Shown: in pieces, positions 7,490-31,590 of the stretch | Numbering within the stretch: the first letter of the stretch is position 1 | Layout of the letters: each line of letters opens with the position of its first letter | Assembly: GCA_016219175.1 (NCBI GenBank) | Contig: JACRCD010000064.1 | Span: 1 to 35,844 of the forward strand | Length of the DNA: 35,844 bases | From: Deltaproteobacteria bacterium | GTDB taxonomy: Bacteria; Desulfobacterota; Desulfobulbia; Desulfobulbales; SURF-16 | Direction: 5' to 3' | The notes under the pieces: generated by a model | What the model was told of the DNA's origin: nothing | Databases searched by the model: none | What the model saw: the letters and a program-made list of their open reading frames with translations, nothing else | Translations under genes and position numbers: made by a program

Positions 7490-7939
7490 TCAATACTTGA
7501 CGGGTAGCCCGGCTTCCTTCCAGGCGGTAAGCCCGCCGCTGACATTATACACTTCCTTGTACCCGTATTTGACCATCATCTGGCCGGCGGCAAAGCTTCT
7601 TCCGCCCACGGCGCAGACCAGCATGACCGGCGTTTCTTTCGGCAGGGTGAGTTTGTTCTGCATGATGGCCCAGAAGGGTACCAGGGTGGAGCCTTCTATC
7701 GCTCCTTCCTTCAGCTCCTCCGGGGTGCGGACGTCGAGGATGACCAGACCGGGCCGCTTTGCCATCAGTTCCTTTGCCTGGGTGACGGAAATGGACTGGA
7801 AGGGGGTGGCGGGGGCCTGGTTAAACAGGGGTTTGTCCTGCACGGCGGCGGCGGGAGGTTTTGCCTCATTGTCTCCGTTTGAGCAGGCGGGAAAAGTAAA
7901 AGCGACAAACAACAGGGTAAAGAAAATGAGTTTTTGCAT
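7490..7939 (-). CDS. Rhodanese-domain lipoprotein
   Basis: This is a periplasmic, membrane-anchored single-domain rhodanese of 149 residues. The N-terminus is a lipoprotein signal peptide with the lipobox ending FPAC (Cys19). The rhodanese domain spans about 48-149, with ILDVRTPEELKEGAIEGS and the active-site loop CAVGGRS. Cys109 is the predicted persulfide carrier and Arg114 closes the loop. VSGGLTAWKEAGLPV is the usual C-terminal hallmark. It may carry sulfane sulfur or help handle sulfide or polysulfide in the periplasm, which would suit a sulfur-metabolising anaerobe, but the substrate is unknown. It lies between priA and def on the same strand and converges with the candidate 6S RNA. Confidence 0.9.
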   Translation of the reverse strand: MQKLIFFTLLFVAFTFPACSNGDNEAKPPAAAVQDKPLFNQAPATPFQSISVTQAKELMAKRPGLVILDVRTPEELKEGAIEGSTLVPFWAIMQNKLTLPKETPVMLVCAVGGRSFAAGQMMVKYGYKEVYNVSGGLTAWKEAGLPVKY

Positions 7940-10656: not shown

Positions 10657-11526
10657 TCATAGGTGCGAGGCGACCTCCTTGATATGGTCGCTGAATTCCT
10701 CACACAGATCGGGGTGGCGCAGGGCAAAGGCGACAATGGCCTTGAGGTAGCCCAGTTTGTCTCCCGCGTCAAAACGGGTGCCTTCGAATTCAAAGGCGTA
10801 CATGCCTCGTTTGTTTGACAGGGCAAGCAGGGCGTCGGTGAGCTGAATCTCGCCGCCATGGCCGGGGGTGGTCTTTTCAAGCATGTCAAAAATATCGGGC
10901 TGGAGAATATAGCGGCCGATGATGGCCATGTCTGACCGGGTGGTGCCGGGCGCCGGTTTTTCCATCATGCGGTCGACCTTGATGACCCGGTTTCTCACAT
11001 GTTTCCCTTCGACAATACCATACTGAAAGGTCTCCTCCAGGGGCACCTTTTGCACGGCAACCACCGACTCCTGCACATCATTGAACAGGTCGATCATCTG
11101 TTTGGTGCAGGGCGGCTCGCTCAGCACCAGGTCGTCGCCGAGCAGAACGACAAAGGGCTCGTCGCCCACCACGTTCCTGGCCGTCCAGATGGCGTGCCCC
11201 AGTCCCAGGGGCCTTTTCTGCCGCACGGAAACAATGTCGATGAGGTTTGACAGATGGCGCATCTCCTCGGCCAACTGTGTTTTTTTCTTGGCGCTTAACA
11301 CCGTGTCGAGGTGGAAGTTGTAGTCGAAATGGTTTTCAATGGCGGATTTTCCCTCACTGGTAATGAGAATAACCTCTTCAATGCCCGAGGCGACCGCCTC
11401 TTCGACAATGTACTGGATGGTGGGGCGGTCAACCACGGTGAGCATTTCCTTGGGGATGGCCTTGCTGGCCGGCAGAAAACGTGTCCCGAGCCCGGCAACG
11501 GGGATGACTGCTTTGCGTACTCGCAT
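10657..11526 (-). CDS. galU: UTP-glucose-1-phosphate uridylyltransferase
   Basis: GalU makes UDP-glucose from UTP and glucose-1-phosphate, feeding glycan and possibly trehalose synthesis. The 289 residues are of normal length. The nucleotide-binding signature VAGLGTRFLPASKAIPKEML opens the protein, followed by YIVEEAVASGIEEVILIT, GLGHAIW, VVLLGDDLV and HGGEIQLTDA. FEGTRFDAGDKLGYLKA near the C-terminus is diagnostic of bacterial GalU. It is transcribed divergently from tilS; 11527-11700 must hold both promoters, but I see no unambiguous -35/-10 pair. UDP-glucose could be a donor for TreT further along the window. Confidence 0.96.
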   Translation of the reverse strand: MRVRKAVIPVAGLGTRFLPASKAIPKEMLTVVDRPTIQYIVEEAVASGIEEVILITSEGKSAIENHFDYNFHLDTVLSAKKKTQLAEEMRHLSNLIDIVSVRQKRPLGLGHAIWTARNVVGDEPFVVLLGDDLVLSEPPCTKQMIDLFNDVQESVVAVQKVPLEETFQYGIVEGKHVRNRVIKVDRMMEKPAPGTTRSDMAIIGRYILQPDIFDMLEKTTPGHGGEIQLTDALLALSNKRGMYAFEFEGTRFDAGDKLGYLKAIVAFALRHPDLCEEFSDHIKEVASHL

Positions 11527-11700
11527 AATTAGTCTCTTCGATTTGGATTATTATGGTATAAATACTCAGATATCAGGAGTCAAAACCGCGGGCTGCAGGA
11601 CACAGACACCGCAGGGACATTGGAATAAGTCAGTACCGACCGACCTTTAGTCTAATAGTCTACAGCCTAAACACCTAATGATTAATTGTCAATTATAACC

Positions 11701-12738
11701 ATGCATCCGCTTGAAAAAGAAATACTGGCAACCATTCGGACCGAGTGTCTTATTGCGCCCGGCGAGGGTGTGGTGACAGGGGTCTCCGCTGGACCCGACT
11801 CCATGGCCCTGCTCCATGTCCTGGCTGGACTCGCCCCGGTGCTTGGCCTGCGCCTTATCGCCGTTTATGTGGATCATTGCCTGCGTCCCCGGGAAACGGA
11901 ACAGGAACGGCTGCTGGTTGCCGGGCAGGCCCGCTTGCTCGGCGCGGACTTTGCCACCTGCCGGGTCGATGTGCGGGAGCAGGCGGCCAGCTTAAAAATC
12001 TCCGTGGAGCATGCGGCCCGGGATGTGCGCTATGATTTTTTTTCGCAGGTGGCGGAAAGATTTCTGGCGGGCAGAATCGCCGTGGCCCATACCGCTGACG
12101 ACCAGGCGGAAGAGGTGCTGCTGCGGCTGATTAGGGGAACGGGCCGGACCGGGCTCTCCGGCATGAAAATGATGCGCGACGCCAAAATCATCCGCCCTTT
12201 TCTGGCCACCCCCAAGGAAAAGCTGCTCGCCTATCTCAGGGAGAGGAACATCCCTTTTCTCGTCGACAGCTCAAATTTTGACCGGGATTATCTGCGCAAC
12301 CGGATTCGCCTTGATCTGCTCCCCTTTCTGCAACAATTCAATCCCAACATCGCGGAGACCCTGCGCCAGACCGCGGCGCTGCTCCAGGATGAAGAAAGGG
12401 TCCTTGCCGACCTGACCGAGACGGCCTGGGCGGAAATGGCCGCGGTCGTGCAGGGCAATGTGGAGGAGGTTCCGCCCTCGGTCTCCCTTGAGCTGGCGGG
12501 CTTCCTTGCCCTGGAGCGGGGCATCCGGCGCCGCATTGCCGAAAAGGTTTTTATTGCCTTGGGGAGCCCGCCGCAGTTCAAGAAAATCGAGCAGATTCTG
12601 CAGGTGGCCGCAACCGGGGAAACCGGGGCCAGGCTTCATTTCGCCAAGGGGCTGCGCATGAAAAAGGGCAGGGACTATCTGGTCTTCAGCTATCCCGGAG
12701 GGAAGATGGCCGGGCGGGGTGATCTGGACGAGGAATAA
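11701..12738 (+). CDS. tilS: tRNA(Ile)-lysidine synthase
   Basis: TilS converts the wobble cytidine of the CAU-anticodon tRNA-Ile to lysidine so that it reads AUA. The 345 residues begin with the N-type PP-loop ATP pyrophosphatase domain, including HTADDQAEEVLLRLIRGTG and SNFDRDYLRNRIR. The PP-loop reads SAGPDS at about residues 29-34, whereas the usual motif is SGGPDS. After the catalytic domain (to about 215) comes the linker/TilS substrate-binding region, and any C-terminal domain is short. I chose the ATG at 11701; an in-frame TTG at 11686 is possible, and neither has a good ribosome-binding site. Confidence 0.92.
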   Translation: MHPLEKEILATIRTECLIAPGEGVVTGVSAGPDSMALLHVLAGLAPVLGLRLIAVYVDHCLRPRETEQERLLVAGQARLLGADFATCRVDVREQAASLKISVEHAARDVRYDFFSQVAERFLAGRIAVAHTADDQAEEVLLRLIRGTGRTGLSGMKMMRDAKIIRPFLATPKEKLLAYLRERNIPFLVDSSNFDRDYLRNRIRLDLLPFLQQFNPNIAETLRQTAALLQDEERVLADLTETAWAEMAAVVQGNVEEVPPSVSLELAGFLALERGIRRRIAEKVFIALGSPPQFKKIEQILQVAATGETGARLHFAKGLRMKKGRDYLVFSYPGGKMAGRGDLDEE

Positions 12739-12756: not shown

Positions 12757-12790
12757 AAAAAAAGGCAGCCCGAGAAAAACCCGGGCTGCC
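12757..12790 (-). terminator. Intrinsic terminator after the cytochrome gene
   Basis: On the minus strand GGCAGCCCG (from 12790) pairs with CGGGCTGCC (to 12764) around a short loop, followed by seven T residues (12763-12757). It ends the cytochrome transcript and lies just past the tilS stop, so tilS and the cytochrome converge here. It matters for the recoding argument: the terminator belongs to the far end of the readthrough frame, not to the internal TGA. Confidence 0.9.
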
Positions 12791-12818: not shown

Positions 12819-14162
12819 CTATCTCCACTTCCACTCGGTCTTCAGGTCGAGATTCTTCTGTTCTTCAAAGAAAACAACCTCATGTCCTTCAAATTCTCCG
12901 AAGGGCAGATACCAGAGCTTGACATCGACCACGATCTCGTCGTTCACCAGATCCCTGGTCTTTTTGCCGTCCTTCTCGCTTACCGTGAAAGGATACGGAA
13001 TCTCGAAGGTTTCCTTGGTGGTTTTCATCGGCGGCAGACTGGTTTCGCGGAGAAGACCGCTCTTCTCGTACGGTCCACGGCCCATTTCCGAGCCGCGGCC
13101 CATGCGGCCGGGGTACGGCATGTAGATTTTCTGGTTGTTGTAGATCTGTTTCCCATCCTTTGTTTTGGCAGTCACATCCAGGACCAGCCTATTAGGAGTG
13201 GGTCAGCCATCCGGGATGGTATGTCCCGCCTTGTTGGTAATCTCCACATTGATAATGCCCATGGGCAGAACGCCTTCCGCGCTGTTTTTGCGCCAGAACA
13301 GGGAGCGTCCGTCCACTTCGACATCCACGGCCATCTTGACCATGGCCTCGCTGTTGTAGGACTGCATGTCGTGGCCAAGGCCTGACTTCTTCATGTGACA
13401 TTCCTGGCAGCTCTCATGCCCGCCCTCGGCAACGTAGGCAAAGAGATAACTGCCGTACAGGGTGGCGCACTGGGAAGGATGGGCCAGCTCGAAATTCGGT
13501 CCCTGACCGTGACACTGCCCGCAGAAGATCGACTCGCCGAGCGCCGGGGCCTTGCCCATTTTCGGGAATTTCGGATCATCATGGGCGCCGTCCTTGGAGC
13601 CGTAAACCGCATCAGGCTGAGCATAGCCGTCGGCCCATTTATGGATGATGGCCATTTTATTGTGACAGACCCGGCAGTTGATGTTCAGGCTGGCAATGGT
13701 CGCTTCCAGCTTAGCCGCCTCGTCGTCCTTTTCTTCCTTTTTGGCCTTCTGCCAGCCCTTGATGGTGGCGATAATCTCCCTGGCCACATCGTCAGTGGCC
13801 TCATCCAGCTGGGGAAGATGACATTTGGTGCACATCTTCAGATGTTCCACGGTAATGTCCTTGTCTTCCTTCACCCCGGAATAGGGGAAATTCTTCACGC
13901 CTACTTCCATGGCGGTGATAATGGTCGGCGCTGTTCTCGGCGAACCGAGGATGGAATGGGAGTGCAGCGAATTCGCCCATTGATCGTGGGCTTCCTGATG
14001 ACATTCGGTGCAGCTGCTTGAGTCATAGCGGTCAGCCAGTTCCTTTATGGTCTTTGCCTTTGGCTGCTCGGCCGGCTTGGGACCGCCTTCGCAGTATGCC
14101 CCGGACGTCCACAACGCCGTCATGGCAAATAAAGACAAACCAATCCTTAAAACCTTTTTCAT
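12819..14162 (-). CDS. Periplasmic pentaheme c-type cytochrome, predicted selenoprotein (in-frame TGA)
   Basis: Reading from the ATG at 14162 gives a signal peptide (to about residue 24) and five CXXCH heme sites at residues 51, 111, 163, 214 and 252. The frame then meets TGA at 13205-13203 (codon 320), in the context AGHTIPDG-TGA-PTPNRLVLDV. It continues open in the same frame for 127 more codons to a stop at 12819, just before a strong terminator. The continuation looks like natural coding sequence (VTAKTKDGKQIYNN...) and completes the conserved beta-rich C-terminal region seen in multiheme cytochromes with a GHxIP motif. The simplest reading is a 447-residue cytochrome with selenocysteine at 320. 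The alternatives are a recent nonsense mutation or a sequencing error. Its role is probably periplasmic electron transfer; the partner is unknown. Confidence 0.8.
13167..13189 (-). promoter_or_regulatory. Possible SECIS-like hairpin downstream of the in-frame TGA
   Basis: Starting 13 nt after the TGA (13205-13203), GGC (13189-13187) pairs with GCC (13169-13167) and GTC (13184-13182) with GAC (13173-13171). These are separated by a small asymmetric internal loop (TG/T) and capped by the 8-nt loop CTGGATGT. A bulged upper stem with a G-rich loop about 20-25 nt after UGA is the geometry of bacterial SECIS elements. The stem is short and other folds are possible, so this is suggestive only. Confidence 0.35.
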
Positions 14163-14725
14163 GACACCTCCTACGTTTTTTAGTTAATTACAGCGTACTT
14201 TTCGCCCCTCACTTTTTCCCCATGGACTTTAGCCCCCGGTTCAACATTCTGGTGCAGCCGCGGCCCATTTATTGATTGCCGTCTCTTACGTGCAAAGAGA
14301 CGCGGAGACCCCTTTTGACGTTATGCGGCGTTCAGTAAAATAACAGCAATAACAAAGAGATCCGATCGATGGCCGATTATAACACAAGCCTTGCTTAAAT
14401 TGCTACAATTCTTCCGGATACCATGATAATTTTTGCAAAAGATGAATAAGTATTCATTTTAGATTTTGATGTAATACAATGTGATATGGAAATGTCAAGG
14501 GTAAAATTGCGGGGATCTCTTTTTTTTGTGATGGCCGGTCTTGTCCGCGGGGAAGAATTCGGCGGTCACTGCCGGGACATGGACTGGCAAGTATCTGCTT
14601 GTGGGGTAATGAGACAGGGGATTGAAAAAGGTCGGGCCGGGCTTCAGGGCGGGGATTAGGGCAGCGGGGACAAAAATCTTTACGGGCCGGGCAATTCGTG
14701 GTAAAGATATGGCCGTATTGTTTGT
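14163..14725. other. Intergenic region between cytochrome and tRNA
   Basis: I see no gene here. It should contain the cytochrome promoter and leader; ACACCTCC just before 14162, read on the minus strand, is a good ribosome-binding site (GGAGGTGT). A perfect 8-bp hairpin CGTCTCTT/AAGAGACG lies at 14280-14302. The sequence is AT-rich around 14390-14500 and has no open frame of note. Confidence 0.6.
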
Positions 14726-14802
14726 GGGCGGGTAGCTCAGCTGGATAGAGTGTTGGCCTCCGAAGCCAAAGGTCGTGGGTTCGAATCCCGTCCCGCCCAC
14801 CA
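14726..14802 (+). tRNA. tRNA-Arg (anticodon CCG)
   Basis: A complete 77-nt cloverleaf is present. The acceptor stem is GGGCGGG 14726-14732/CCCGCCC 14792-14798. The D-arm is GCTCAGCTGGATAGAGT. The anticodon stem TTGGC/GCCAA closes the loop CTCCGAA, whose CCG at 14760-14762 is the anticodon. The T-arm contains GGTTCGAATCC, and the discriminator A is followed by an encoded CCA (14800-14802). It reads CGG codons. It has its own downstream terminator and appears to be a single-gene unit. Confidence 0.97.
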
Positions 14803-14907: not shown

Positions 14908-17871
14908 TCACTTGCCACTGACTTCGCCTGCCTGTTCCGGCCGCCACTCCAGAAGCGCCACGGGAAATTGCCGGAGGATGGCGGCCAGGGGAAGGATCGG
15001 ACCGGCTGCCTCGTCCGCCGCATGGGTCTCCCCGGTAAAGATATTCCGGTAGCCGTTTCCGGCACCATCCGCCGGGAGTTCGATAACGGTATCACCCCAG
15101 GCCGCCCGGCCCAGGGGAGAGGGAGCTTCAGCTCCGCTAAGTCGCGAAACGAGCCGGGGCGCGACCACGATCACCTTTTTTCCCTCAACCGCGCGCATAA
15201 AGGCGATCACCGATTCCTCCCGTTCTCCCCGCGCCGTAAGCGGGGTGTAAACTCCCTGCTCGAAGATCTCCCGGTTGTCCCGGCGGAAAGTGAGGGCCTT
15301 CCAGGTCAGGAAGAGCTTGATGTTGCCGTCCTCCATATTGCCAAGCAGCTTGCGGCACAGGGCGGCCGGACCGCTCCGCCGCTCCGTGGCCTGCAGTGCC
15401 TGCAACATCCCGGCCCGTCTGGTGAAATCAATTGGCCGGCGGTTGTCCGGGTCCACGAGGCTCAGGTCCCAGACTTCGCTGCCCTGGTAGAAATCCGGCA
15501 GGCCCGGCGAGGTGATCTTGAGCAGCGTCTGGGAGAGGGAGTTGAACATGCCGAGCCGGCTCACATAACCGGCAAGCCCCAGGAAGGAACGGACAAAGGG
15601 GGTGTCGCCCTCGCCGAGGATGGCCTCGATGAAGGTCTCCACCGCCTCCTCGTGGGCGCTGTTGGGATTCACCCAGCTGCTGTTGATTTTCGCCTCGCGG
15701 ATGGCTTTGCGCATATAGTCCCTGATGCGCTGCCGGAAGAGGCCGAACTCTTCGCCGTTACCGGGCTGATGCGGCCAGGCACCCAGCAGGGTCTGGTAGA
15801 GGAGATACTCCTCGTTGCGGGACGGCGCCTGCAGGCCGTCAACAACCTTTCTCCGTTTCCGGTTGATCTGACTCCAGGTGATGAGCGCCTTGCGCCAGAC
15901 ATCCGGGATTTCCGACAGCACGTTGATGCGGGCCCGGACATCCTCGCTGCGTTTGGTGTCATGGGTGGCGGTGGCGAGCATGGCATGAGGGTAGCTGGCG
16001 AACCGCTCCATGTTCCGCTGGTGGAAGTCCTCAACGGGAAAGCCGAAGCGGTCAGGGGCGCCGCCCACTTCGTTTAAAGACACGAGGCGGTTATAGCCAT
16101 AGAAGGCCGTATCTTCCATGCCCTTGGCCATCACCGGGCCGGTGAGCTGCTGAAAGCGCATGACAAAATCGAGACGCAGCCGCTGATCCTCCTCGCCCGA
16201 TCCGGCCGGGCAACGCAGCAGCAGGACATCACGGAGAAAGTCGAAGATGGAGGAGCCCATGGCCGGATTATGCCGCCTGGCCTGTGATATCGCCCTTTCG
16301 ATGATCTGGCGGTCCGACTCCGCGATCTGGCTGCCGCGGACATACGTCCGGTAGACCGGGAAGAAGGCGATGATCTCCACCAGGGCCTTGGTGAGGCTGT
16401 TCAAGGTGAAGTCCCTGGTGTGGCGGTCTCTTTCGGAGATGGTATTGAGAAAGCGGCTTAAGTTGTTGATCTCGCTTGACATGGAGACCTGCATGACAAG
16501 CCGTTTCGCCTCGGTGGCCACCTCGGGAAAGTTCCGGTGCCGGCGCATGAAATGGCCGTAAACGGCCTCAAGTTTCCCGGCGTTACGGCCATCCACCAGC
16601 AGACCGTTGACACTGTTTAAAAAGGCATAGCCCGTGGCGCCATGGACCGGCCAGTCACGGGGGAGCCTCTCGCCCGGCATGAGGATCTTCTCCCCGACGA
16701 TATAGAGTGGCGGACTGGCGGCGGGCTCGGCCGGCGGGGTCTGGCCGGTCACGGTTTGCGCCTCCTCCGTCCCTTCCCCCAGGGCGTTCCGGCACTGGGC
16801 CTGGAGATGGCGGAGGTAGGCGGTTGGGTCGTAGAGGCCGTCGACGTGATCCACCCGCAGGCCGGTCACCTTGCCTTCAGCCACGAGACGCAGGACAAAG
16901 CCGTGGGTTGCGGCAAAGACCGCTTCATCCTCAACCCGGATGGCTCCCAGGGCGTTGATGTCAAAGAAACGCCGGTAGTTGATCTCCTCGGTGGCCACCC
17001 GCCAGTGGGAGATGCGGTAAACCTGTTCGGCGAGCAGTCTGTCGAGCAGGTCGAAACTTGCCGGCGTGTCCGGCCGGCCGTTGAAGATGCGGACGTTTTC
17101 GTCGATGAAGCCGGCCACGGCCGGGCTGTCTTCATGCAATCGCTGGATGCGGCGTTTGACCACCTCTTTTTCCCGGTAGCGTTCCGCTATCCGCTCCGGA
17201 TCGGTTTCCGTGTAAAAAGGCAGGTGCTGGAGAGCGGTCATGATGCTCAGCAGCTCCTGGAACGGGAGACTGTCGCTGCCCAGTTGCTGTTCCAGGATCT
17301 CCAGCCGGTGGCCGAGGATATGCACATAGGTCTTGGGGATAATGGGGAAGCTGTGTTCGTAATAATGGAGGGTAAAGGCGCCGTCCGCGAAGACGAGGAC
17401 GAGTTCGCCGTTTTCCAGAACATTGCCGTACTGGTCTCCCAGCACCGGGATGAGCACCTTGTTCTTCAGCTCTTTTTTCACCGGGTCCCAGTCGATATCA
17501 AAGGTCCGGGCATGGACCGAGCTGGGGCCGTTTTCAAGCAGATCCCGCCACCAGTGGTTTTCTCCCCCTTCCACGCACATATGATTCGGTACGATGTCGA
17601 GAATCTGGCCCATGCCGAGGTCATGGAGCAGGGCGGTGAAGGCCTCGTACTCCTCGGCCGAACCCACCTCCGGGTTCAGGCCGTCATGGGCCACGATATC
17701 GTAGCCGTGGGGACTGCCCCGGCGGGCCTTGAGATAGGGGGAGGCATAGATGTCCGTTATTCCGAGCTCCCGCAGGTAGGGGAGGATGGCGGTCGCCGCG
17801 CGGAAACCGAAGCCGGCATGAAACTGCAGCCGGTAGGTGGCGGCCGGGATGCGGGGTGAAAGGGATATCAT
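14908..17871 (-). CDS. treY: Malto-oligosyltrehalose synthase
   Basis: TreY (GH13) isomerises the reducing-end alpha-1,4 bond of maltooligosaccharides to the alpha,alpha-1,1 bond of trehalose, giving maltooligosyltrehalose. The 987 residues begin IPAATYRLQFHAGFGFRAA, the family's signature start. GH13 catalytic regions are visible: DIVPNHM; GLRVDHVDGL, which carries the nucleophile Asp; IVGEKIL, with the acid/base Glu; and ATHDTKRSEDVRARI, with the transition-state Asp. The C-terminal part contains GLPDFYQGSEVWDLSLVDPDNRRPIDF, another TreY hallmark. It is somewhat longer than many homologues because of a loop around residues 365-385. It is the last gene of the operon, 31 bp after treZ, which acts on its product. 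Confidence 0.96.
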   Translation of the reverse strand: MISLSPRIPAATYRLQFHAGFGFRAATAILPYLRELGITDIYASPYLKARRGSPHGYDIVAHDGLNPEVGSAEEYEAFTALLHDLGMGQILDIVPNHMCVEGGENHWWRDLLENGPSSVHARTFDIDWDPVKKELKNKVLIPVLGDQYGNVLENGELVLVFADGAFTLHYYEHSFPIIPKTYVHILGHRLEILEQQLGSDSLPFQELLSIMTALQHLPFYTETDPERIAERYREKEVVKRRIQRLHEDSPAVAGFIDENVRIFNGRPDTPASFDLLDRLLAEQVYRISHWRVATEEINYRRFFDINALGAIRVEDEAVFAATHGFVLRLVAEGKVTGLRVDHVDGLYDPTAYLRHLQAQCRNALGEGTEEAQTVTGQTPPAEPAASPPLYIVGEKILMPGERLPRDWPVHGATGYAFLNSVNGLLVDGRNAGKLEAVYGHFMRRHRNFPEVATEAKRLVMQVSMSSEINNLSRFLNTISERDRHTRDFTLNSLTKALVEIIAFFPVYRTYVRGSQIAESDRQIIERAISQARRHNPAMGSSIFDFLRDVLLLRCPAGSGEEDQRLRLDFVMRFQQLTGPVMAKGMEDTAFYGYNRLVSLNEVGGAPDRFGFPVEDFHQRNMERFASYPHAMLATATHDTKRSEDVRARINVLSEIPDVWRKALITWSQINRKRRKVVDGLQAPSRNEEYLLYQTLLGAWPHQPGNGEEFGLFRQRIRDYMRKAIREAKINSSWVNPNSAHEEAVETFIEAILGEGDTPFVRSFLGLAGYVSRLGMFNSLSQTLLKITSPGLPDFYQGSEVWDLSLVDPDNRRPIDFTRRAGMLQALQATERRSGPAALCRKLLGNMEDGNIKLFLTWKALTFRRDNREIFEQGVYTPLTARGEREESVIAFMRAVEGKKVIVVAPRLVSRLSGAEAPSPLGRAAWGDTVIELPADGAGNGYRNIFTGETHAADEAAGPILPLAAILRQFPVALLEWRPEQAGEVSGK

Positions 17872-27813: not shown

Positions 27814-30800
27814 ATGAATAATCTCTTGGACGTTCCAATAACATCGGTAACTGCGCTCATCCCCGAGCGCGCCGTGGTCGTAATGCGCGCCATACTTCGA
27901 TCTGAATGCGACTACGCCAAGCTGAGCCCAGTCGTATTGACGATCTCTGGGCGAATCTCGATCGCGGATGGCGGCATTGACGCTGAGGTCGATGTGCCCT
28001 CTGGGCTTACGATTCCCACAGATTGCCTATTTCAGTCCGGACTTACAGGATTCCAGATCAAGTCAGGGACGACGTTCAAGCCTTGGATGCCGAGCGCGAT
28101 TCGTAGTGAACTGCTAGATAGCAAAGGGGAACTGTGCTCCGAGGTGGAGCGCCTCCTTCGCCGTGGTGGTCGCTATACGCTGCTTTGCACGGGCCATGAT
28201 CTGACCCCGGAACAGCGCAATGATTCGCGGCAACAGATTGCTGTTGTGATGTCGGAAGTGGGATTCAGGGAGCACGGAGAGCTGATCGAAGTCCTCGGCG
28301 CGAGCCAGGTTGCTCAATTTGCCGAACGCTATCCGGGGACAGCATCTCTGCTGGCAGTCGACCCAATTCAAGAAGCCTGGGTCCTTGAGGAATGGCAGCG
28401 TGATGCCCATATGGCAAATACCTTCGAGGCATCACCAGAGCAGTCTCAAATAATCGCCCATATTCGGGCAGGACTTCATGGCGAGATCAAACACATCCGT
28501 GTCCTCGGAGAGCCTGGTCTCGGGAAGACGCGCATTGTCCTTGAGTCCGTTAAGGAAGCGAATATCGCGTCCTACGTGCTGTACGTACAGCACGGCTCAC
28601 AATTTGGCCAAACAAGACTTTTCCGCCAGTTGTTGAAATTTGGCTATGATAAACCGCTCGTACTTGTCATCGACGAACTTCCGGAGTCCGAGCTGTCGGA
28701 TATCTGGAGGCATTTGAAGCCGCGTTGCGGCAGTCTGAAGATTGTGTCGCTGGACCACGGGAGAGACGAAACCTACGACGAGGAAATTGATCGACTCTAC
28801 GCCCCGCGTCTGCCTGACGAGATCATAAAGAAGATACTTGCCAGCCGAGTTGGCGAATCACGCGAGCTTGATCGATGGGTTGCGATCTGCGAAGGCTCTC
28901 CGCGAGTTGCGCAGGCAGTTGCGGACAACCTTCACGCAAACCCAGGAGACATTCTGAAACCGCCGTCCACGGTGCCAATTTGGGCGAGATTCCTGCATGG
29001 CTACGGCAGCCGGGTCGAGGGGACCACAAGGCAAGTCAACTGTGTCACCCAGCACTTGGCCCTGTTCAGCCGATTCGGTTATGAAGCTCCGGTAGGGGAT
29101 GAAGCGGTGTACCTCGCCGAACTGATTCGGAAAGTAGATCCGACGATTGGATGGGCGCGGTTCCAGGAGATCGTTCAAAGTCTTCGTGCGCGAAGGGTAC
29201 TTCAGGGAAGCAGGACGCTCTTCTTTGTGCCAAAGGCCCTCCACATCTATTTATGGAAGCAGTTCTGGGCGTGCTATGGGCGTTGGTTTGACTTCACCCA
29301 GACCTTCAATAACATGCCGGAGTCCTTACACATTTGGTTCATGAACATGTTCAAGTTTGCAGGGGCCGCGGCAACGGTTCATGTCATTGACGACATTCTT
29401 AGACCAGACGGCATTTTTTCCCAGCGCGCAGCGCTAACGTCGGCGAAAGGTTCCCGATTTCTTTCCATCCTGGCCGAAGCCAATCCTGCTGCTGTGCTGA
29501 GGCTTTTGGAAGCCACGATTGGCAAGTGGACTGATCAAGAGCTCTTGGATTTCAAGCAGGATCGGCAGAACCTCGTCTGGGCGCTTGAAAAGATCGCGGT
29601 TTGGCCACCCTTTACGGTTAGGGCAATCCAGGTGTTAGTCCGATTCGCTGTCAACGAGAATGCCGACTTCTCTAACAACTCTATGGGCACCTTAATTGGG
29701 CTGTTTCGCATCGGGCCTGAAGAGGCTGCTACGGAATCGACTCCCGAAGCGCGACTTCCGGCAATGCTTAAACTTCTCCGTGCGCCTGGGGACGCGGAAC
29801 GCCGTCTTGGGCTCAAGGCGATGGGAGCCGCGCTCGACAGTCGTGGCATGGGTTTTCGGATTGTCGGACCTGAATATCAAGGACTAAGGGAGAGAGCCAA
29901 GCTCTGGATTCCAACAACATACGGCGAGTGGTGGCAAGCCAAGTTTACTTATTTTCAGGCATTGGTCGAGGAGACTCGAAACTGGCCTCTCTCTCTGCGC
30001 GCCGAGGTCTGTCAGACCCTGCTGGAGACCGTAGAGCAGCAGATCAAAACACCACCATGTACGGAGTTGGCGTTCCAAGTGCTGAGCGCTCTTGTCGACG
30101 ACAGTACGATGTCGCCGGAGAAGCTGAATCGTTTCTTTTGGCATTGGCAGGAGTATGAGCATGACGATAAGCATCCCGAGATTGCAAAGAGGTTGCGAAG
30201 CTTCGAGCGTCGCTACACAAAACGCGACTTGCTAAGTAGGTTCCGACGCTACGTGGTTGATATGGACTGGATGGAATGGGAGGATGACTTTCGCGAACAG
30301 CACAACAAGCCCAGGAATCGCGCTAAGATTCTCGTCAACGCTCTGGCTCGCCGTATCGCGCGGCATCCGGAGAAACTAAGTCAGATCCAGCATCTCCTTG
30401 CGCCAGCAAGAAATGCCCCTGCGCTGTGGCATTTCGGGGAGCAGGTGGGGCTGAATGATAAGACGCGAGAGTTGCTGCCGGCTCTTACCCAGCTAACCCT
30501 GGAAACAAAACACCAAGTGTGTCTGCATAGCTACCTGTCGGCAGTACGGGCAAGCAATCCCGAGTTATATCTCTCCACGGTCAGAGGGTTTCTAAACATG
30601 GAGAGCACTGCGTGGCTGGGAGCAACCATCGCACTTCGCTCCGGCTATGATGATGGGTTGTTCGTGCAGTGTCTGGAGGCACTGGAAAAAAGATGGATCG
30701 ATCCGCTGCTTTTCGCAGGGCTTCGATTCGGGAAAGCGAGCGAATCGGTTCCTCCAGAAAGGACAGGGCGACTACTTCGCCAGTTGAACGAGCACGATGC

Positions 30801-31590
30801 TCAGGAATCACTATTCCTCTTGATTGAGCTGTTAGACTCGATCCCGTTCAACGACTCCTCGCCGTTCAATTCAGACTTCGTCTTCGGGGTGGTGTCAAGA
30901 GCCATTCCTGGCGAGGAAAGTCGGGATGTCATGCGCGGTTACCACTGGAAGAACATCTGCTTGAAACTGATCAAGTGGGACGTGAGTTACGTACTTCCCC
31001 TGCTGGATGCCTTGCTTGCCAAAATGGGAAAAGTATACCGTTTGAGCTACGACTCCGACGTCGAGCCGCTGGCAAATGAGCTTGTACGAGCCGACAAATC
31101 TGGAGCGTGGAGGATTGTGAAGGCACATTTCGAGGAGACGCTTCCAAAATGGCGCGGCGACCTTTGTCATTGGCTCAAGGGAGGGCTATCGACATTCGAT
31201 GAAAAGGAACCGAGAGGCGCAATTGCTGACCTGCCGGTTCCGGAAATTCTCGAATGGATTGAAGAAGATCCCGGGGCTAGAGCTGCGCTGATGGCTCACG
31301 CTGCTCCCGGCACACTTGACGACCCTCAAGGCGGTCGTTTGACTCGGGAATTGTTGTACAGGTATGGACAGTTCGACGGTGTTCGAAGTGGCATCAGTGC
31401 GACCTTTCACTCCGGCGGATGGACTGGTCCAGCAAGTGCCTATCTGAAGCGAAAGAGAGAGAAATTCCGTCGATGGCTGGCGGCTGGCTTTGAGATTGAG
31501 ATATCACAATGGATCGAGGCCGAAATTGAATACTTGGATCGTTATATCGAACGCAAGGAAATTGACGAGGAGCGTTCGCGATTCGACTGA
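27814..31590 (+). CDS. Large STAND-type ATPase with nuclease-like N-terminus (Avs-like defence candidate)
   Basis: The product has 1258 residues. Residues about 45-85 carry ADGGIDAEVD ... GFQIKSG, the D...(D/E)xK-like arrangement of PD-(D/E)XK nucleases (Asp56, Glu58, Gln81, Lys83). A P-loop NTPase follows: Walker A GEPGLGKT (232-239), Walker B LVLVIDE (282-288), and EGSPRVAQ (360-367), which matches the GxP motif that defines STAND ATPases. From about 400 to the end the protein is alpha-helical with no further motif, as expected for a superhelical sensor domain. Effector, STAND and sensor in that order is the architecture of antiviral Avs proteins. It is the only large gene in its locus, and codon usage looks less GC-biased than in the core genes. 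Antiviral function is inferred; a nucleic-acid repair role is possible. Confidence 0.8.
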   Translation: MNNLLDVPITSVTALIPERAVVVMRAILRSECDYAKLSPVVLTISGRISIADGGIDAEVDVPSGLTIPTDCLFQSGLTGFQIKSGTTFKPWMPSAIRSELLDSKGELCSEVERLLRRGGRYTLLCTGHDLTPEQRNDSRQQIAVVMSEVGFREHGELIEVLGASQVAQFAERYPGTASLLAVDPIQEAWVLEEWQRDAHMANTFEASPEQSQIIAHIRAGLHGEIKHIRVLGEPGLGKTRIVLESVKEANIASYVLYVQHGSQFGQTRLFRQLLKFGYDKPLVLVIDELPESELSDIWRHLKPRCGSLKIVSLDHGRDETYDEEIDRLYAPRLPDEIIKKILASRVGESRELDRWVAICEGSPRVAQAVADNLHANPGDILKPPSTVPIWARFLHGYGSRVEGTTRQVNCVTQHLALFSRFGYEAPVGDEAVYLAELIRKVDPTIGWARFQEIVQSLRARRVLQGSRTLFFVPKALHIYLWKQFWACYGRWFDFTQTFNNMPESLHIWFMNMFKFAGAAATVHVIDDILRPDGIFSQRAALTSAKGSRFLSILAEANPAAVLRLLEATIGKWTDQELLDFKQDRQNLVWALEKIAVWPPFTVRAIQVLVRFAVNENADFSNNSMGTLIGLFRIGPEEAATESTPEARLPAMLKLLRAPGDAERRLGLKAMGAALDSRGMGFRIVGPEYQGLRERAKLWIPTTYGEWWQAKFTYFQALVEETRNWPLSLRAEVCQTLLETVEQQIKTPPCTELAFQVLSALVDDSTMSPEKLNRFFWHWQEYEHDDKHPEIAKRLRSFERRYTKRDLLSRFRRYVVDMDWMEWEDDFREQHNKPRNRAKILVNALARRIARHPEKLSQIQHLLAPARNAPALWHFGEQVGLNDKTRELLPALTQLTLETKHQVCLHSYLSAVRASNPELYLSTVRGFLNMESTAWLGATIALRSGYDDGLFVQCLEALEKRWIDPLLFAGLRFGKASESVPPERTGRLLRQLNEHDAQESLFLLIELLDSIPFNDSSPFNSDFVFGVVSRAIPGEESRDVMRGYHWKNICLKLIKWDVSYVLPLLDALLAKMGKVYRLSYDSDVEPLANELVRADKSGAWRIVKAHFEETLPKWRGDLCHWLKGGLSTFDEKEPRGAIADLPVPEILEWIEEDPGARAALMAHAAPGTLDDPQGGRLTRELLYRYGQFDGVRSGISATFHSGGWTGPASAYLKRKREKFRRWLAAGFEIEISQWIEAEIEYLDRYIERKEIDEERSRFD

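Follow-up and report, generated by a model that had tools for sequence, protein, structure and literature searches.

We observed that a gene on the reverse strand of a 35,844-nt stretch of Desulfobulbales DNA (contig JACRCD010000064.1 of assembly GCA_016219175.1; hereafter the window) carries a single in-frame TGA, and sequence comparison indicates that it very probably encodes one 447-residue protein of the ExtKL/MccSep family in which TGA codon 320 is read as selenocysteine (Sec). In the reading that we favor, one exported pentaheme c-type cytochrome would be encoded across the TGA, and SelB, drawn by a SECIS hairpin that begins 13 bases past the codon, would decode it as Sec. An earlier note on this DNA had proposed the same recoding, which is now supported by the homologue column, the Sec machinery, the hairpin, the NCBI family model and an alignment with MccSep. 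The gene structure described there was recovered as well. The frame (14162-12819, −) opens with ATG, contains one internal TGA at 13205-13203 and closes with TAG at 12821-12819; its five CXXCH sites (first residues C51, C111, C163, C214 and C252) all precede the Sec/Cys site, and 127 sense codons lie between the TGA and the TAG. The residues flanking codon 320 are GHTIPDG upstream and PTPNRLVLDV downstream, as quoted in that note, and the strong terminator that it placed past the 3′ end was located at 12790-12764 (−), making this a single gene with its own terminator.

Table 1 Features of the window around the predicted selenocytochrome gene.
Feature	Position	Strand	Description
Nucleotidyl transferase	10657-11526	−	galU-like by eye
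PP-loop protein	11686-12738	+	tilS-like by eye
Intrinsic terminator	12764-12790	−	stem of 11 pairs (9 G-C) followed by 7 T
Predicted ExtKL/MccSep-type pentaheme selenocytochrome gene	12819-14162	−	447 residues with the TGA read as Sec
C-terminal beta-rich domain	12846-13328	−	strands between residues 279 and 439
SECIS-like hairpin	13167-13189	−	arms GGC and GGUC with U between, GG in loop, arms GACU and GCC
In-frame TGA, codon 320	13203-13205	−	inferred selenocysteine
Five-CXXCH heme-binding stretch	13395-14012	−	residues 51-55, 111-115, 163-167, 214-218, 252-256
Probable N-terminal export signal	14088-14162	−	hydrophobic helix, residues 5-20 in model; by eye
tRNA-Arg	14726-14802	+	
Alpha-amylase-type protein	14908-17871	−	treY-like by eye

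The cytochrome scored 585.7 bits over residues 13-441 against NCBIfam NF040886, 'multiheme c-type cytochrome (seleno)protein ExtKL' (curated cut-off 250 bits). This model asks for Sec or Cys following GHxxPDG, and the TGA of the window gene stands directly after that motif. Since such a model exists, current annotation need not split the gene, contrary to the expectation in the earlier note that a conventional annotation would do so or call it a pseudogene. A relative is represented in the PDB by five entries named 'Multiheme cytochrome c selenoprotein (MccSep)', which we compared by chain names and sequences. Three of them (9wt8, 9wta and 9wtb) share one sequence with a non-standard residue at 325 that aligns with TGA codon 320; a second sequence (9wt9 and 9wtc, with names that include 'U325A') has Ala at 325, aligned with the same codon. 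MccSep is alignable with the window protein over window residues 31-436 but is a different protein sequence. A literature search that included the name 'MccSep' found no paper on these structures, and MccSep was not among the 50 Foldseek matches listed; the fold library ends in April 2026, so the entries may be newer.

The family itself is known: it was predicted in 2007 and its structures are already solved (MccSep). The first proposal, as far as we found, is PMC1914089 (2007), whose available text has only TGA in the column and gives neither a SECIS nor a non-Sec homologue for the family. In the available text of PMC5877670 the Geobacter gene is named extKL and a role of its product in selenite reduction is suggested from preliminary work, while that of PMC6148476 describes ExtK and ExtL as separated by a TGA for a predicted selenocysteine. 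The family is also included among prokaryotic selenoproteins in the accessible parts of PMC13188914 and PMC9312934; the word 'cytochrome' is absent from the main text, in its accessible form, of PMC2398784 and PMC5029168, which the review PMC13188914 cites for the family.

Homologues were collected with the window protein or NF040886 as query, so that distant relatives are under-sampled. Searching the fetched loci by tblastn with the window protein yielded 110 matches, which were reduced to 93 by removing copies only where the last 600 bases were identical, and then to 90 aligned genes by dropping three fragments, two of which are pieces of one broken copy. At the column of codon 320, 81 of the 90 genes have TGA, six have TGT or TGC, one has GTT, one has ATC and one is cut off at a contig end; a second in-frame TGA was found in none of the 90. 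The suggestion that this position might be Cys in homologues thus holds for these six. By record title, the aligned organisms include Thermodesulfobacteriota, Nitrospirota and Myxococcota. The same TGA is present in genes that are 84, 87 and 88% identical and come from three other assemblies (G005, G002 and G011), which makes a base-call error very unlikely. Decay does occur in the family, since one relative (G050 contig 8, 94512-95029; L063, L064 and L113) has a cytochrome copy broken right after the TGA and one Cys copy (G337; L098) has an in-frame TAA, and both cases could be cited for regarding the window gene as a pseudogene. However, its TGA recurs in other assemblies and several phyla and is followed by 127 intact codons, and a pseudogene or sequencing error is, in our judgment, a negligible prospect. 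The relative with the broken copy has another family copy on contig 17, which is intact and divergent.

The TGA might instead be a true stop, with the two halves made as separate proteins from one operon (extK and extL). In the available text of PMC1914089 a conserved operon is offered as another possibility, given that no SECIS was found there, PMC11976967 gives a two-gene structure for one cable bacterium and G. sulfurreducens, and in the window an in-frame GTG lies downstream of the TGA at 13175. However, both parts are consecutive in one frame in all 81 TGA genes (the three fragments left out), and five of the six relatives with Cys at the column are without any stop in frame. The constraint on synonymous codons past the TGA, described below, and the MccSep chain with a residue at the place of the TGA both fit read-through. 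We therefore consider two separate proteins quite improbable and a single Sec-containing protein the better account of the gene.

We assessed synonymous constraint in the 81 TGA genes by comparing the evenness of synonymous codons in each column with that of codons resampled according to the usage of the individual gene; a thinning step in this test removed none of the 81 genes. Of all 8-codon windows in the gene, that at +4 to +11 past the TGA was the most constrained. Codon +6 is always GTG for Val (41/41) and always CTG for Leu (35/35). Val is GTC in 65 of 76 cases at codon +7 and GTG in 64 of 74 at codon +10, Leu is CTG in 75 of 77 at codon +8, and Thr is ACC in 61 of 67 at codon +11. The z-values, which are inflated because the genes are related, were 27-34 for columns +6, +7, +8 and +10, 18.6 for +9 and 15.1 for −94, with a gene-wide mean of 2.0 (sd 4.1). 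Far upstream of the TGA, column −112 (about 13541-13539, −, in the window) also stood out, with Ser nearly always AGC or AGT (z 24.5).

Within 13140-13205, which had been singled out for a bacterial SECIS search, we located a SECIS-like hairpin at 13189-13167 (−). It has a minimum free energy (MFE) of −8.4 kcal/mol, 8 pairs, the loop UGGAU and 22 nt from the TGA to the apical loop. These values lie within the published SECIS limits, given in the available text of PMC13188914 as a loop of 3-9 nt, a stem of 4-16 bp, a G as the first or second base of the loop, a spacing of 16-37 and an MFE of at most −7.5. The limits were passed by 64 of the 81 TGA genes (17 fail) and by 0 of the 8 non-TGA genes; they are weak alone, because 58 of 486 control windows taken from other parts of the same genes pass as well, and so do 50 of 324 resamples. 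The core of the hairpin is GGUC...GACC, and in most genes its loop is CUGGAAGU or CUGGAUGU (31/81 and 23/81, respectively). All four core pairs are kept in 70 of the 81 TGA genes, compared to 0 of the 8 non-TGA genes, and in 1000 synonymous resamplings they were kept on average in 12.0 of 81 (sd 3.3, highest 23). On 76 distinct stretches these four pairs were formed in 93.1% of cells (90.1 in shuffles), and 7 cells were changed on both sides of the pairs, in comparison to 0.9 in shuffles, with every slid version exceeded; RNAalifold proposed no consensus structure for the same 76 stretches. Six of the 11 TGA genes that lack the core pairs, including those of the Geobacteraceae loci L023, L024 and L032, have CUGUCGGU at positions 25-32. 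These genes permit another hairpin nearer the TGA, with UGGUUCU or UGGUCCU as loop and the arms CCGAC and GUCGG assigned by eye, and the MFE fold of some of them pairs otherwise. The Geobacter-type sequence, which allows UGGUUCU between these arms but has an MFE fold with other pairs, differs from the GGUC/GACU type of the window. Altogether, the alignments strongly support RNA-level selection directly after the TGA, whereas the exact fold of the putative element is less supported.

The window's genome encodes tRNA-Sec (68.9 bits; gathering score 47), SelA (619.1 bits), SelB (364.9 bits) and SelD (375.6 bits), so that all of the selA, selB, selC and selD functions that the earlier note had proposed to look for were detected. 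SelD (L117; G000 contig 88, 161448-162374) contains one internal TGA and is therefore probably a selenoprotein itself. SelB was over the cut-off in 62 of 65 genomes, counting 50 carriers of the cytochrome and 15 non-carriers together, and is non-discriminating since carriers and non-carriers pass alike. Under the cut-off were two carriers with the TGA (G002, 88% complete, and G167, 76% complete) and the non-carrier G020. The TGA could also be read through with another amino acid, by near-cognate or unspecific suppression and without SelB. Such a mechanism would agree with the unremarkable fold of the window stretch, which on its own is not unusually stable (z −0.32; 67 of 200 shuffles as good). 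The Cys at the column in six genes, the presence of tRNA-Sec, SelA, SelB and SelD in the genome, the RNA-level constraint just past the TGA and the word 'selenoprotein' in the PDB name all speak against it, and we consider non-Sec read-through highly improbable.

The Cys forms come from six genomes: G329, G083, G337, G374, D. elongatus (G440) and a Nitrospirae genome (G441). A maximum-likelihood tree covering 88 of the 90 genes requires 4 changes for Cys, of which at least 3 follow from well supported branches, and these changes may be gains or losses. Sec and Cys copies occur together in four genomes (G083, G329, G337 and G374), which also have SelB. Loss of the Sec machinery as the cause of the Cys forms was rejected, because all six Cys-form genomes pass the SelB cut-off. 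The genes with Val (GTT) or Ile (ATC) each come first in a tandem pair, and the two genomes concerned (G254 and G083) belong to the same genus. In these pairs (L096 on G083 contig 12 and L084 on G254 contig 132) the motif of the first copy is GHxxPDS[IV]; the second copy has Cys in L096 and is truncated at the end of the contig in L084. We also noted a very divergent relative (L112:1471-2592; G091 contig 287) that scored 172.8 bits, under the NF040886 cut-off, and has a TGA after HRVPDS with a downstream RNA sequence much alike; it may be a separate subfamily.

Two observations go beyond the 2007 report: a conserved RNA element past the TGA in TGA genes and not in the 8 non-TGA genes, and the six Cys homologues, four of which occur in genomes with both a Sec copy and SelB. 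The NCBI name '(seleno)protein' suggests that the Cys forms are already known to its curators, and we claim no priority for the RNA element or the Cys forms. Sec and Cys copies in one genome provide natural pairs for asking what advantage selenium brings to a heme protein.

To describe the surroundings of Sec320, we used an AlphaFold model of the cytochrome (mean pLDDT 90.6). The CXXCH sites lie in a mostly helical part and the C-terminal part is beta-rich, with strands from 279 to 439. Sec320 is positioned in a loop between strands 298-310 and 325-334, GH-x-IPDG-Sec-P, six residues from His314, which is invariant in 54 aligned proteins. Among the solved structures of the fold library, the best match was penta-heme cytochrome c552 of Thermochromatium tepidum (5ze8; Z 22.5, 3.0 Å, 305 aligned residues). 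It resembles the window protein in overall fold over these 305 residues, and both proteins have Cys232 and the His of the GH-IPDG motif, but Ala replaces Sec in c552. The fold does not depend on the selenol, since Val or Ile takes this place in two tandem copies and Ala does so in c552. Cys232, a non-heme residue that is invariant in the 54 proteins, was weakened as a candidate partner of Sec320, because 5ze8 has it together with Ala at the Sec position.

In the mechanism that we propose from this model, which is without hemes, the loop with His314 and Sec would approach one of the hemes, and the selenol would act there on a ligand or substrate. That the loop lies against a heme, with the selenol providing redox activity or substrate binding in a periplasmic reductase, is a tentative proposal to which we give somewhat less than an even chance. 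A bolder version is unlikely, though worth stating: Sec320 might belong to a catalytic heme site, either as an axial or near-axial selenolate or as a selenol that passes electrons on to the chain of hemes, and the family might switch between Sec, Cys and neither with the substrate. If true, this would be a heme enzyme with its reactivity set by selenium.

Finally, we compared the genomic context with that of Geobacter. ExtKL of Geobacter (GSU2937-2936) is like the window protein in its five CXXCH sites, its C-terminal part and a TGA in the same motif, and the three Geobacteraceae loci that we found (L023, L024 and L032) are 52-54% identical to the window protein. The Geobacter gene is part of extHIJKLMNOPQS, as given in the available text of PMC5877670, whereas the window gene stands outside any ext cluster. 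No adjacent multiheme cytochrome genes (extM, extN or extS) were found beside it, its neighbors belong to other families, and no other window frame of at least 60 codons has more than one CXXCH. For these reasons we do not classify the gene as part of an ext conduit, and the contribution of the window is one single-standing family member outside the ext cluster. Geobacter-type loci L022, L023 and L032 have a 12-heme frame and further multiheme frames downstream, and L024 has a 10-heme frame. In the 12 loci that most resemble the window in type (L009-L014 and L016-L021), no CXXCH was found in the flanking frames of at least 100 codons that were picked, and the neighbor genes differ. A search with one ExtI porin query, run without a positive control, gave no match in the genome; an ExtM query matched multiheme frames elsewhere in the genome, the best being a partial match of 42% identity on contig 38.

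The palindrome TGAATACTTATTCA (14443-14456, −), ~290 bases upstream of the start, was considered as a conserved promoter box and rejected, as it occurred in 0 of 12 relatives over 420 bases. Scanned against Rfam at gathering scores, the window gave one match, a tRNA. About 5 kb from the cytochrome, the window encodes a rhodanese-domain protein (7490-7939, −; Pfam PF00581, 63.1 bits); Geobacter ext clusters also contain a rhodanese-like protein, but that of the window is not adjacent to the cytochrome. Lastly, a 1258-residue protein encoded at 27814-31590 (+) matched the PADLOC model PD-Lambda-4_A with 83.9 bits and is a candidate anti-phage defence protein.
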